From Pandoraea oxalativorans (GTDB taxonomy: Bacteria; Pseudomonadota; Gammaproteobacteria; Burkholderiales; Burkholderiaceae), in the NCBI RefSeq assembly GCF_000972785.3, contig NZ_CP011253.3, positions 2,170,001-2,234,000 of the forward strand: 64,000 nt of DNA. Direction: 5' to 3'. Of this stretch, positions 20,270 to 24,136 are shown one piece after another. Under the pieces are notes generated by a model that saw only the letters and a list, made by a program, of their open reading frames with translations, did no database searches and was not told where the DNA came from. The position numbers were made by a program, and so were the translations under genes. Numbering within the stretch: position 1 is the stretch's first letter; each line of letters starts with the position of its first letter.

Positions 20270-20458
20270 CTACACCAGCACGGGCAACGCCTCCACCACG
20301 AGGAACGCGACGAGCGCCCCAACCATCGCACCGACGGCACGCAGACCGTAGCGGGTCGAGCGCGTGGCCACAGGAATACCGCCAACGAGTAGCGCACCGG
20401 CCACTGCCATCGGCAGGAACAAGGTCAGGTCGTAGAGATTGAAGTGGATTGCGGGCAT
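20270..20458 (-). CDS. Small two-helix membrane protein (paralogue A)
   Basis: 62 residues from ATG at 20458 (MPAIHFNLYDLTLFLPMAVA), preceded by AGGAGAG. Two hydrophobic helices, LTLFLPMAVAGALLVGGIPV and RAVGAMVGALVAFLVVEALP, joined by a basic loop, with a short C-terminus PVLV. The length, helix spacing and ending (VGALVAFLVVEALPVLV) match the protein at 34240-34425 (VGSVLAVLAFEVVPLFA), so the two look paralogous. Function unknown; an inner-membrane location is likely. Confidence 0.65.
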   Translation of the reverse strand: MPAIHFNLYDLTLFLPMAVAGALLVGGIPVATRSTRYGLRAVGAMVGALVAFLVVEALPVLV

Positions 20459-20551
20459 CTTTCTTCTCTCCTCTCCTATGTGCCTTTCCACTATAGAACG
20501 GTCTTCGAGGATGCCCAAGTTTGGCGCAATGCAGCATGTTGCTGCGCCTGT

Positions 20552-20758
20552 TCAGTCTTCCTGACGAACGGCGTGCATCTTGCGACGTGCGTTCCACATC
20601 GCCATGTCCTTACGGGTGCGGATGCGTTCGCCGACGTTGATGCCCGCAGGTTGCGAGCGCGGTGAAGAGGCGGCAACTTCGTTGGCTTCGCTGCGCGCCT
20701 GTACCATCATGACGAGCGTGAACAACGAGGCGGCAAGCGCCAGCAGGATCAGTTTCAT
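20552..20758 (-). CDS. Small membrane-anchored basic protein
   Basis: 68 residues from ATG at 20758, with GGGGGC just upstream. Residues 1-18 (MKLILLALAASLFTLVMMV) are a single membrane anchor or uncleaved signal; no lipobox. The rest is short and basic: INVGERIRTRKDMAMWNARR. No family recognised. It could be a periplasm-facing accessory protein, but there is no direct support. Confidence 0.55.
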   Translation of the reverse strand: MKLILLALAASLFTLVMMVQARSEANEVAASSPRSQPAGINVGERIRTRKDMAMWNARRKMHAVRQED

Positions 20759-21158: not shown

Positions 21159-21359
21159 TTACGGCTGTCGGGAAATGCCGTCGTTCGGGCGAGCGCGCAC
21201 CGCATTCTCCGGTAATGCCATGGCCGCGAGCGACGCCAGTGCCGCTCCTGCCTGCGCCAGCTCGTGCATGACGTCAGGCGAGGTGCCGAGCGAAACCGCG
21301 AGGCCTGTGAGGCCCGCCCACGTCGACGGTTCCAGCAGCCGGGACAAGAGGAAGCGCAT
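21159..21359 (-). CDS. Holin-like small membrane protein next to chitinase
   Basis: 66 residues. The start ATG at 21359 lies 2 nt after the chitinase stop, and its GGAGG site is inside the chitinase 3' end, so the two are translationally linked. The sequence MRFLLSRLLEPSTWAGLTGL is followed by AVSLG, a short polar turn and a second hydrophobic helix (HELAQAGAALASLAAMALPE), then a charged tail. Size and layout match small phage-type holins that form inner-membrane holes. No other phage genes are near. In Serratia and Yersinia, holins of this kind are needed to release chitinases (type 10 secretion). That role here is inference. Confidence 0.6.
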   Translation of the reverse strand: MRFLLSRLLEPSTWAGLTGLAVSLGTSPDVMHELAQAGAALASLAAMALPENAVRARPNDGISRQP

Positions 21360-21361
21360 GG

Positions 21362-22933
21362 TCAGTCCTCCGTCGAGGAATCGTCCAGCGACGTCTTCCC
21401 GATGAAGTAAAACGGCGTCATGTCGATATGCGATGCCGTCGCTTTCTGCCCAAGCCCCTCATGTGCCGCATTCGCCAGCACGCCGTTGTCCTGGTCGACG
21501 GTCCAGGTGAACAGGCCGCCAAGCCCGTTGCGCCTGACGTAGTCGCCCTTGGCTCGCACGGTACGTGGCGTGTCGAGCGACATGAACATGCCCGTCGAAG
21601 GCTGGTACAGGAAGTCGGCATCGGCCACCGTATCGGTGTACAGAACGAAGCCGTTGCGCGCCGTACCGTGTTCGAGATCGAGGTAATTGCGCAGCACGTC
21701 GTAATACTCCGTTGTCCCCGATTCGAAGGTGCCGGTGGTGATGTCGTCGCCCGGGGAGTAGGTGCCGGAAAGCGCAGCGACCTGTGCAATCTGCGCCTGA
21801 AGCGCGTTGCGCGAGTAGGCTGCGTAACCGATGTGCACCTTGGCGAGCGGAACGCCTGCCTGACGTAGCCAGTTCACCGCGCGATCGATCGAGTAGCCGT
21901 CGGGCGCGGCCGGGTCCGTGTCGTGAAGATTCGTGTGATGAGCGAGCGCGGGCGCCCACGGCGTGCCGAAGAAGTCGTACGTCATCAGATTCAGACGTGA
22001 GACGCCCGCCGCGATCAGGCCCGGCAGGTTGGCCTTTTGCATGTCGGCCACGCTGGCCGACGCCGCAATCGAGATTTCGACGTCACGGCGACCGGCGGCC
22101 ACCAGCGCCCGCTTCAGATCGCTCACGAGCGCGACGTAGTTCGGTCCGTCCGAGTCGTCGTAGAGGTTGCCGTCGTCACCCGGCGAGCCGGGATACTCCC
22201 AGTCGATGTCGATCCCGGTGAACATTGGGAAGCGGCGCAGCAGATCGACGACGCTCGCGCAGAACGTCTTGCGTCGCGCGCTGCTGCCCGCCAGTCCATG
22301 AAACGCCTGGCTCATCGTCCAGCCGCCGATGGCGATGGCGAGTTTGAGTGCCGGGTTCTTCGCGTGCAGCAGACGCAAACCGCCGAGTACGCCCTGTGCC
22401 CGCGACTGCTGGAACATCGGCGTCACGTCGTTGCTCACCCAGCCGGGAAAGCCGCAGTTACGATAGGAGAGCACGTCCCCCCAACTGTCGACGAAGGTGG
22501 CCTGATCCGGCTTGCGTACGAAGTCGGTGGCTGCGCGGGCGATGGTCTGCGCCTTCTCGCCCTGATCGCCTACGATGCCCGCGAATCCGATGATCAGCCG
22601 GTCGTAGGCAAACGGATCGAGCAGCATCAGATCGACGCCGCGTCCGGCCGCGTCGTTGCTGAAGTCGCCGTCGAGGCGTCCATCGTATTGCGACCAGTCG
22701 GTGTAATAGCCGGAGACTTCGAATGCGTTTTTCGCATATCGGTTGTAGACGCGCCTGGCGACACGCGCCGACGTGTACGACAGTTGTGTCGTGCTCGTCG
22801 CCGGATCGAATCCGTTCTGCGCATAGGTGGTTTCCGTCGCGCCGTCGAGCGGGTCCGTGGGGTAGACGAGTGCGCTGAGGGCGTCGGTGGCGCATGCAGC
22901 GCAAGCGGGAGACGAATTGCACGGTGCAGTCAT
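21362..22933 (-). CDS. GH18-family chitinase without signal peptide
   Basis: 523 residues; start at 22933 with AGGAG upstream. A glycoside hydrolase family 18 barrel: the SxGG-type strand LAIAIGGWTMSQ near 198-209 and the catalytic DxxDxDxE form GIDIDWEYPGS with Glu at 246. The Met-Tyr-Asp strand LNLMTYDFFG and the late Trp strand LGGLFTWTVDQDN complete the substrate cleft. GH18 enzymes hydrolyse chitin with retention through the N-acetyl group. The N-terminus (MTAPCNSSPACAACATDALS) is not a signal peptide, so Sec/Tat export is unlikely. The wHTH gene lies 94 bp upstream and the holin-like gene follows immediately. Confidence 0.93.
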   Translation of the reverse strand: MTAPCNSSPACAACATDALSALVYPTDPLDGATETTYAQNGFDPATSTTQLSYTSARVARRVYNRYAKNAFEVSGYYTDWSQYDGRLDGDFSNDAAGRGVDLMLLDPFAYDRLIIGFAGIVGDQGEKAQTIARAATDFVRKPDQATFVDSWGDVLSYRNCGFPGWVSNDVTPMFQQSRAQGVLGGLRLLHAKNPALKLAIAIGGWTMSQAFHGLAGSSARRKTFCASVVDLLRRFPMFTGIDIDWEYPGSPGDDGNLYDDSDGPNYVALVSDLKRALVAAGRRDVEISIAASASVADMQKANLPGLIAAGVSRLNLMTYDFFGTPWAPALAHHTNLHDTDPAAPDGYSIDRAVNWLRQAGVPLAKVHIGYAAYSRNALQAQIAQVAALSGTYSPGDDITTGTFESGTTEYYDVLRNYLDLEHGTARNGFVLYTDTVADADFLYQPSTGMFMSLDTPRTVRAKGDYVRRNGLGGLFTWTVDQDNGVLANAAHEGLGQKATASHIDMTPFYFIGKTSLDDSSTED

Positions 22934-23027
22934 GAGGTGGCTCCTGAGAGTGAATGGACAGGTGCCGTTGCCGGGCGATGAAACATGAGGCTCGCGGCGA
23001 CATCGGCGTGACCAGCGTCGCGTTCGC

Positions 23028-23936
23028 TCAGCGGCTTCGCCAGCGCAAATGCCGTGTCAGTGTGCGCAAGGCGCGTGGGAGCGTCGTCGGCAGCCAGTCC
23101 CGGAGCCGACCGGGCCTGCCTGTCGACGGGCGGGGTGGGGAGGGCGTGGGTGACGTATCCGGTGCCTCGGGCATGAGCGCGGTGTCAGCGTCGACGCAAG
23201 ACTCGAAGCGATAGCCGATGCGCGGCACCGTCACAATGTGGCGATGCAATCCGAGCGGAATCAGCTTGCGGCGCAGGCGCGAGACCACCTGCATCAGATT
23301 GGTGTCGTCCTGATCGGGACGCGTCGGCCACAGCATCGCGATCAGCGTACGTTTGTCATGGGCGACATTGGCCGGGGAGCGCAACGCACACAGCAAGCGG
23401 TACTCGATCTGCGGGATCCGGACGGTCACGCCGTGTCGCCGCACCTCGCCGTGCCCGTCGCATGCGACACCGTGCGAGAGCGGCGGTGCGCACGATGCGG
23501 AGGCCGTGGCGTCGACGACCGTCACGCCGTCGTGGCTGCTGTTTAAGCACACCGACGACGTTTCGCGCGCTGCTTCGTCTGAAGGGTTCATATCGGAAGG
23601 GGTCATGGAAGCGTTCATGGAATCGATCGCGGAGGTGGACGACGGGACGTCGAAGCGATAGCCGACGCGCGCCACCGTCACGATGGCGCGTTGCAGGCCG
23701 AGCGGGGCGAGCGAGCGTCGCAAGCGGGAGACGAGTTGCACGAGCGCGGCGTCTTCCATCCACTGCGCGCGTTTGCCCCACAGCGCCGACATCAGCGCGT
23801 GCTTGTCGAGCGCGGTGCCCGCACGGGCGGCGAGCAGGACCAATAAACGCTTTTCCTGCTCAGACAGGCGCGCGGCGATGCCGTCGCGTTTTACGAGATT
23901 GGTGACCTCGTCCAGATCGAATGGTGACATCGGCAT
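23028..23936 (-). CDS. Regulator with two OmpR/PhoB-type winged helices
   Basis: 302 residues; AGGAG lies 7 nt before the ATG. Two Trans_reg_C-type DNA-binding domains occur in tandem with no receiver domain. The first, about residues 10-95, ends LVSRLRRSLAPLGLQRAIVT with VARVGYRFDV. The second, about 165-255, ends VVSRLRRKLIPLGLHRHIVT with VPRIGYRFES. A Ser-rich linker of about 70 residues joins them, and a Pro/Arg-rich tail follows. The near-repeat shows an internal duplication. There is no membrane segment of the ToxR/CadC kind. It is the first gene before chitinase and holin on the same strand, so it is the likely regulator of that unit. Confidence 0.85.
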   Translation of the reverse strand: MPMSPFDLDEVTNLVKRDGIAARLSEQEKRLLVLLAARAGTALDKHALMSALWGKRAQWMEDAALVQLVSRLRRSLAPLGLQRAIVTVARVGYRFDVPSSTSAIDSMNASMTPSDMNPSDEAARETSSVCLNSSHDGVTVVDATASASCAPPLSHGVACDGHGEVRRHGVTVRIPQIEYRLLCALRSPANVAHDKRTLIAMLWPTRPDQDDTNLMQVVSRLRRKLIPLGLHRHIVTVPRIGYRFESCVDADTALMPEAPDTSPTPSPPRPSTGRPGRLRDWLPTTLPRALRTLTRHLRWRSR

Positions 23937-24136
23937 GGGCTGCTCCTGGTATCGAATAGCGGAGGCTCACCGTAGCGATGCGCGCTCACCTGTCGCAAGA
24001 CAACAAGCGACGACAAGCGCGACATAGCCGTCGCCGTTCGGTACGTTGATCGGCGAGATGCGCTCGTCGAGTGCCTAGCCAATGTCACGCGTCACATCGC
24101 GAGGTAAGATAGCAGCCACATTTCCTGGATTTCGCC

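Follow-up and report, generated by a model that had tools for sequence, protein, structure and literature searches.

A conserved regulator–chitinase–small protein unit in Pandoraea with likeness to chitinase type 10 systems

Introduction

In Serratia marcescens, the export of chitinase requires a holin-like protein encoded in chiWXYZ, and no obvious signal peptide is present on ChiB or ChiC (PMC5778951). The chiA operon of Salmonella Typhimurium, a type 10 system, similarly brings together the holin STM0015, the hydrolase STM0016, ChiR (STM0017), a ToxR-like protein that combines a winged helix with a membrane segment, and the chitinase ChiA (PMC10109510). In Yersinia entomophaga, RoeA, a PhoB-like protein without a phosphorylation domain, controls a lysis cassette and exoproteins (PMC10101115); the exoproteins Chi1 and Chi2 are released via this type 10 cassette under RoeA (PMC10101115, PMC10847048), and the cassette is unlinked to its cargo (PMC10847048). 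Here, we analyze a locus of Pandoraea oxalativorans in which genes for a regulator, a family 18 glycoside hydrolase (GH18) chitinase and a 66-residue protein follow one another in that order on the minus strand, with the coordinates and common direction given in an initial annotation that had proposed possible holin-dependent, type 10-like secretion. The locus lies in a stretch of 64,000 nucleotides (assembly GCF_000972785.3, contig NZ_CP011253.3, positions 2,170,001 to 2,234,000), hereafter called the window. Our literature searches returned nothing that joins type 10 secretion with Pandoraea, and titles on Pandoraea and chitinase among the matches listed name no such unit.

Results

The three genes are kept and lost as a unit

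When we searched 32 Pandoraea genomes for each gene of the trio and for both of its flanks, the chitinase and the regulator turned up in the same 21 genomes and the small gene in one more, 22 in all. In all 21 chitinase-bearing genomes the regulator and the small gene adjoin the chitinase, such that the gene order, whose conservation had been proposed as a check, holds throughout. The 23 small-gene matches in the genus comprise these 21 copies, a frameshifted remnant (genome G014) and a prophage copy (G016). The flanks are widespread regardless of the unit, with the upstream esterase gene in 29/32 genomes and a downstream gene for 68 residues in 28/32. Seven chitinase-less genomes (G008, G010, G011, G012, G014, G020 and G029) retain both flanks, 0.6–4.1 kb apart, and none of the seven holds an intact member of the trio; this comparison covers these seven, with G018, G023, G025 and G030 left out. 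Remnants were seen in G014 (locus L107), which has the frameshifted small gene, a 16-residue chitinase end and what appear to be the first regulator codons, and in G010 (L176), which has a 51-residue piece of the chitinase (a 38-residue regulator match in L176, with an expectation value [E] of 0.11, was disregarded). Other long open reading frames (ORFs) fill the site in G008, G011 and G029. Since the flanks stay while the trio is lost together, the trio behaves as a block with sharp borders.

The junction between the chitinase and the small gene is also conserved. Read from the sequence, the small gene starts 2 nt past the chitinase stop, as first annotated, with GGAGG 7 nt ahead of its ATG. 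Nine of the 21 orthologs have a 4-nt ATGA overlap, 11 have TGA-NN-ATG and one (G028) has a 24-nt gap; the junction is thus tight in 20/21. Moreover, the median ratio of nonsynonymous to synonymous substitution rates (dN/dS) of the small gene is 0.147 (190 pairs among 20 sequences, G028 being omitted), which indicates purifying selection, and that of its core is 0.077 (first 52 alignment columns, 189 usable pairs). From these low ratios, we conclude that the small gene is real and its core constrained.

That the regulator, chitinase and small gene belong together as one unit is well supported, because co-occurrence in 21/21 genomes, loss as a block and the tight junction are joined by the presence of relatives of the regulator beside the same type of chitinase elsewhere (see below). 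The three genes are probably cotranscribed. The initial annotation had proposed from the layout that they work together, and the layout is indeed conserved.

Table 1. Features of the unit, with positions in the window
Feature	Position	Strand	Evidence
Regulator, 302 residues	23936-23028	minus	Pfam Trans_reg_C, E 9e-27, two stretches
GH18 chitinase, Chi1/Chi2 type, 523 residues	22933-21362	minus	PF00704, E 3.4e-56
Small gene, 66 residues, helical-hairpin "EPSTWAG" phage family, holin-like candidate	21359-21159	minus	Profile kinship, model, dN/dS
Chitinase/small-gene coupling junction: stop, 2-nt gap, GGAGG in chitinase frame	21360..21371	minus	Read from sequence
Upstream block CTTGYGACAGG...GCTACGGT, candidate promoter/operator of the unit	23969..24000	minus	Alignment of upstream regions

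The small protein has phage relatives near lysis genes

The motif EPSTWAG, from which we coined the name of the family, occurs in 20/21 Pandoraea sequences and reads EPSTWAA in G028. A profile that included the G016 prophage copy retrieved 2608 proteins at E ≤0.01 and 62 loci on viral contigs. The initial annotation had let its proposal hang on homologs not being found mainly away from chitinases, and the outcome differs with the level considered: within the genus, 21/23 matches lie beside the chitinase, whereas the wider family of 2608 proteins is of phage type, and no member from outside Pandoraea was seen beside a chitinase among the matches listed. The prophage paralog (L108:8844-9005, that is, G016:C1:2935846-2936004) belongs to a prophage that encodes a GPA-type replication protein and a coat protein of the PM2-like double-jelly-roll type (P2_N, P2_C); two ORFs separate it from an endolysin-like gene whose product has a hydrophobic N terminus. 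This copy gave a marginal match to PHROG holin family 297 (E 0.035).

To describe the viral neighborhoods, we scanned 131 of 185 neighboring ORFs from 48 of the 62 loci, leaving out loci that were near-identical or redundant as well as a few additional ORFs, and added the prophage endolysin, for a total of 132 proteins. Family counts are those among the matches listed (the best 25 of 124 families in one scan and 25 out of 32 in the other), and a protein may match several families. The commonest named matches were lysis enzymes (Phage_lysozyme, five; Peptidase_M15_3, two; Peptidase_M15_4, two), with one match each to GH108, SLT, Amidase_2 and CHAP; holin-type matches were to GTA_holin_3TM (three) and Phage_holin_3_5 (one). 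Most of the 132 proteins had no lysis match among those listed. Ten neighbors, picked by hand rather than at random, were scanned singly, and six were of lysis type, while four had no named match. The six comprise a Rz-like spanin (L137; weak, E 0.0006), members of endolysin families (L141, L144 and L170) and holins (L150 and L159), and those of L137, L144, L150, L159 and L170 directly adjoin the family member. A regular-expression search for endolysins around the viral relatives (6/53 loci) was dropped as insensitive, and scans with hidden Markov models were used.

Among annotated phages, tblastn searches with the small protein and the prophage copy found weak or no matches, and searches with viral members found mostly weak ones. 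The family member of L115 matches Rhizobium phage RHph_I20 (E 5e-6), in which the relative comes directly after a gene named as lysozyme. In Klebsiella phage vB_VIPKPNMC05, a weak match that keeps EPSTW (E 0.2) comes directly after genes in the order holin-holin-endolysin; in a Microcystis phage record, no lysis gene lies directly beside the relative. Judging from these neighborhoods, the EPSTWAG family appears often to be found in phage lysis cassettes. The position of its phage kin near lysis genes favors a lysis-type origin of the small protein rather than speaking against one.

AlphaFold modeled the small protein as a helical hairpin with main helices at residues 11–24 and 28–48, at modest confidence (predicted local distance difference test score 73, predicted template modeling score 0.32). 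Class II holins have two membrane helices, with both ends in the cytoplasm. The net charge of the Pandoraea proteins is +1 to +2 before the EPST motif, −2 in the loop (20/20 sequences) and −1 to +2 in the C-terminal tail. Across 20 Pandoraea sequences, the medians of the best 17-residue hydrophobicity means were 0.94 for the first helix and 1.51 for the second, lower than in the viral relatives (1.49 and 2.04; 53 sequences). Of the earlier description as a two-helix membrane protein, the two helices are therefore borne out by a model of modest confidence, but the membrane part is weakened by the low hydrophobicity. The nearest PHROGs, 38447 and 8494, are unnamed and match weakly. Among 19 close relatives, eight carry a Pandoraea name, and one is labeled "Holin" in UniRef, without stated evidence.

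The chitinase is of the Chi1/Chi2 type and lacks a signal-like segment

The chitinase scored 191.7 bits against PF00704 (cutoff 29.6) and is the sole GH18 match in its genome. Its best solved relatives, both aligned over nearly the full length, are Y. entomophaga Chi2 (E 2e-118; chitinase residues 30–514) and Chi1 (E 2.6e-113). Among the best of at least 80 loci, the nearest named one is that of Pandoraea capi, at 91% identity, followed by that of P. nosoerga at 86%. A tree of 27 hand-chosen rows places the Pandoraea chitinases in a group of their own (support 91/99, which falls short of the tool's star), separate from Trinickia, Paraburkholderia and Cupriavidus and also from the Enterobacterales forms.

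The N-terminal 11-residue Kyte-Doolittle means are all below 1.8 in 21/21 orthologs (highest 1.77), and the result is unchanged when the in-frame region upstream of the chitinase start is included; a motif resembling a ribosome site precedes an ATG at the start region in 21/21. By this measure, the chitinase has no signal-like segment in any ortholog, in agreement with the initial annotation, which had named a signal peptide as the result that would tell against it.

The GH18 motif has the form DxxDxDxE. The chitinase, with its motif at 22196-22210, has the catalytic D-x-D-x-E as IDIDWE, and in this sense the earlier statement that the catalytic residues are intact is right, but the first Asp of the longer motif is Thr, and Chi1 and Chi2 lack that Asp too. 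Among the 21 orthologs examined (this chitinase and L083–L102), the first Asp of D-x-D-x-E is Asn in 18 and Asp in this chitinase, L087 and L102, while the final D-W-E is kept in all 21. As a separate observation, the chitinase ORFs of Trinickia (L004) and Cupriavidus (L006) extend far longer at the C terminus, to 917 and 957 residues, possibly with an added domain.

Relatives of the regulator accompany chitinases in two orders

Pfam finds two PhoB/OmpR-type winged-helix stretches (Trans_reg_C) in the regulator and no receiver-domain match. As initially described, it is a tandem winged-helix protein; by its domain matches, it is a receiver-less regulator of PhoB type, of the RoeA/ChiR kind. 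We compared a profile of 17 Pandoraea regulators with loci L002–L020, the best 19 of at least 80 chitinase loci, and found relatives (E <1e-9) beside the chitinase in 9/19 loci, including 7 of the 17 from outside Pandoraea. In the two Pandoraea loci the regulator has the same direction as the chitinase. In Trinickia, Paraburkholderia and Cupriavidus, a two-domain regulator is divergent from the chitinase, and in Chimaeribacter, Rahnella, Superficieibacter and Enterobacillus, the divergent regulator has one winged-helix domain and a hydrophobic C-terminal segment. The match in Yersinia nurmii is weak (E 0.0022). Pfam scans of eight non-Pandoraea regulators gave Trans_reg_C in seven (three below the curated cutoff) and none for Rahnella. 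The pairing of regulator and chitinase thus spans two bacterial orders; in both, PhoB-type regulators lacking a receiver seem to go with Chi-type chitinases. In the Enterobacterales loci with Chi2-like chitinases (L007, L009, L011 and L015), the divergent regulator, at ∼5.0–5.6 kb in each, resembles Salmonella ChiR in its single winged helix and hydrophobic C-terminal segment.

Searches of the genome for lysis enzymes

A search of the genome for an endopeptidase or spanin, suggested by the initial annotation, gave no match to Peptidase_M15_4, Peptidase_M15_3 or Phage_lysozyme (GH24), with each control positive, and none to Phage_lysis (Rz), with the Escherichia coli control positive and only the Rz spanin type covered. 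There was likewise no GH108 match, yet its control was silent too, and the genome may therefore hold a TtsA-type muramidase. Moreover, Pfam searches can miss lysis enzymes, as is seen from the endolysin-like protein encoded in the G016 prophage, which matches no Pfam family.

Comparison with described systems

The Salmonella chiA operon combines a chitinase, a winged-helix regulator and a holin-type gene (PMC10109510), as does the Pandoraea unit, in which the holin-type gene is a candidate; but a TtsA-like hydrolase is part of the Salmonella operon and ChiR there carries a membrane segment, whereas no such hydrolase was found in the Pandoraea unit, whose regulator has two winged helices in tandem. 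Like the unit, the Y. entomophaga cassette, YenLC, goes with chitinases of this type and with a PhoB-like regulator that lacks a phosphorylation domain (PMC10101115, PMC10847048); it differs in having a holin, an endolysin and two spanins, in lying apart from the YenTc island and in the size of RoeA (15 kDa), and Chi1 and Chi2 differ in being parts of the Tc complex. In Serratia, ChiW has three predicted membrane segments, the endopeptidase ChiX is required (PMC5778951) and the regulator is described as LysR-type, unlike the tandem winged helix of Pandoraea. The phage EPSTWAG proteins are like the small protein in sequence, length and motif, but they are encoded on viral contigs, in many cases close to lysis genes, and their hydrophobicity is higher, whereas the Pandoraea gene is chromosomal and lies beside a chitinase.

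The unit resembles chitinase type 10 systems in its cargo, its type of regulator and a small protein of lysis-cassette kinship, and it differs from them in the identity of that protein and in that no linked hydrolase or spanin was found. Type 10 cargo lies near and often lacks a signal peptide, and here the chitinase is directly upstream of the small gene. The holin position is taken by a protein with kinship to phage proteins near lysis genes, but without a holin match and with weak hydrophobicity. A cognate peptidoglycan hydrolase was not found within the families searched, nor was a spanin of the Rz type (spanins being part of the Serratia and Yersinia examples). Since hydrolase and spanin were both looked for in this way and not found, we do not class the unit as a type 10 system.

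Discussion

Our best reading is that the unit is a stripped-down, type 10-like release system for a cytosolic chitinase in which the small protein acts as the permeabilizing element, and we regard the odds for and against it as about even. The receiver-less PhoB-type regulator would switch the unit on, and the chitinase would be made and folded in the cytosol. The hairpin protein of 66 residues, whose gene is coupled to that of the enzyme, would build up in the inner membrane, where it might permeabilize or depolarize the producer cell and free the enzyme. Such release would probably amount to controlled lysis of a subpopulation, with the cell wall opened by housekeeping autolysins or by an unlinked hydrolase. 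A stricter version, in which one 66-residue hairpin exports a folded chitinase of ∼57 kDa (an estimate from length) with no dedicated hydrolase or spanin, under a tandem PhoB-type switch, as a holin-only unit kept or lost whole in the genus, seems to us distinctly improbable. If release does occur as we propose, the locus would be a natural three-gene case in which the holin and hydrolase steps of type 10 secretion are separated. It would raise the question of whether a small phage-type protein is enough to free a folded enzyme or whether a wall enzyme must assist, and it would assign a function in cells to a phage protein family that is very large and has no name.

Several results weigh against this proposal. 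The search of the small protein against holin families that the initial annotation had called for matched no holin model, and nothing was significant in Pfam, NCBIfam or PHROGs. A hydrophobicity mean of 1.6 is reached by the first helix in 0/20 Pandoraea sequences and the second in 6/20, compared to 15/53 and 48/53 of the viral relatives. No hydrolase or spanin was found among the seven window ORFs scanned around the unit, as the initial annotation had noted of the adjacent genes. The regulator profile finds no relative in 9/17 non-Pandoraea loci (Photorhabdus, Xenorhabdus and Iodobacter), and three other Burkholderiales with the regulator–chitinase pair have no such small gene in the flanks fetched. 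Finally, an annotated holin sits near the family in L150, L159 and Klebsiella phage vB_VIPKPNMC05, and for this reason the family may be an accessory one. The main alternative builds on this last point: the small protein would be a phage-derived accessory (antiholin-like, a holin modulator or a membrane adaptor), and a holin and hydrolase encoded elsewhere would release the chitinase. The low hydrophobicity of the small protein and the precedent of the unlinked cassette in Y. entomophaga (PMC10847048) fit such an arrangement, but the genome shows no M15_4, M15_3, GH24 or Rz match, within a set of families that was not exhaustive, in which the GH108 control was silent and with holins elsewhere not searched for; on balance, we consider this alternative unlikely, although still a serious contender.

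It is also conceivable that the small protein has been put to another use, for instance to hold or regulate the chitinase, with the enzyme exiting by general lysis or in vesicles. The lower hydrophobicity of both helices in Pandoraea than in viral sequences is in line with this idea, as is the pair without a detected small gene in other Burkholderiales, but EPSTWAG is kept in 20/21 sequences and the core is under strong constraint, and we judge re-use to be quite unlikely. The kinship to Chi1 and Chi2, the closest solved structures, raises a different prospect, that the chitinase acts in a Tc toxin shell, with the small gene as a bystander. A TcA-type gene is indeed present in the same genome (G000:C1:2761714-2762613), ∼570 kb from the unit; in the genus, however, such a gene occurs in 8/32 genomes, five with the chitinase and three without, and 16 of the 21 chitinase genomes have no TcA match. 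Because TcA is present without the chitinase and mostly missing where the chitinase is present, we see no tie between the unit and Tc, and a role in a toxin shell is very improbable. We give hardly any credence to the view that the trio are chance neighbors in a conserved stretch of chromosome: the genes around the trio are also syntenic, but this view is contradicted by the flanks, which persist while the trio vanishes as a whole.

Flanking genes and upstream sequence

Upstream, the unit is flanked by an esterase gene on the opposite strand (Pfam Esterase), which we take to be of the S-formylglutathione hydrolase kind. The downstream flank is the 68-residue gene at 20552-20755, whose product has an N-terminal hydrophobic segment; the 89-residue ORF that contains it had no significant match in Pfam, NCBIfam or PHROGs. 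An 82-residue ORF with two hydrophobic stretches lies at 20270-20518 on the strand of the unit and likewise had no significant match in these databases. No tandem repeats were found at the locus, terminator candidates were not above those of shuffled sequence, and a consensus promoter scan gave nothing at the upstream block of Table 1 nor elsewhere in the sequence scanned. In the alignment of regulator upstream regions, which covers 17 of the 21 regulators (the other four were not extracted), this block is kept in most of the 17.

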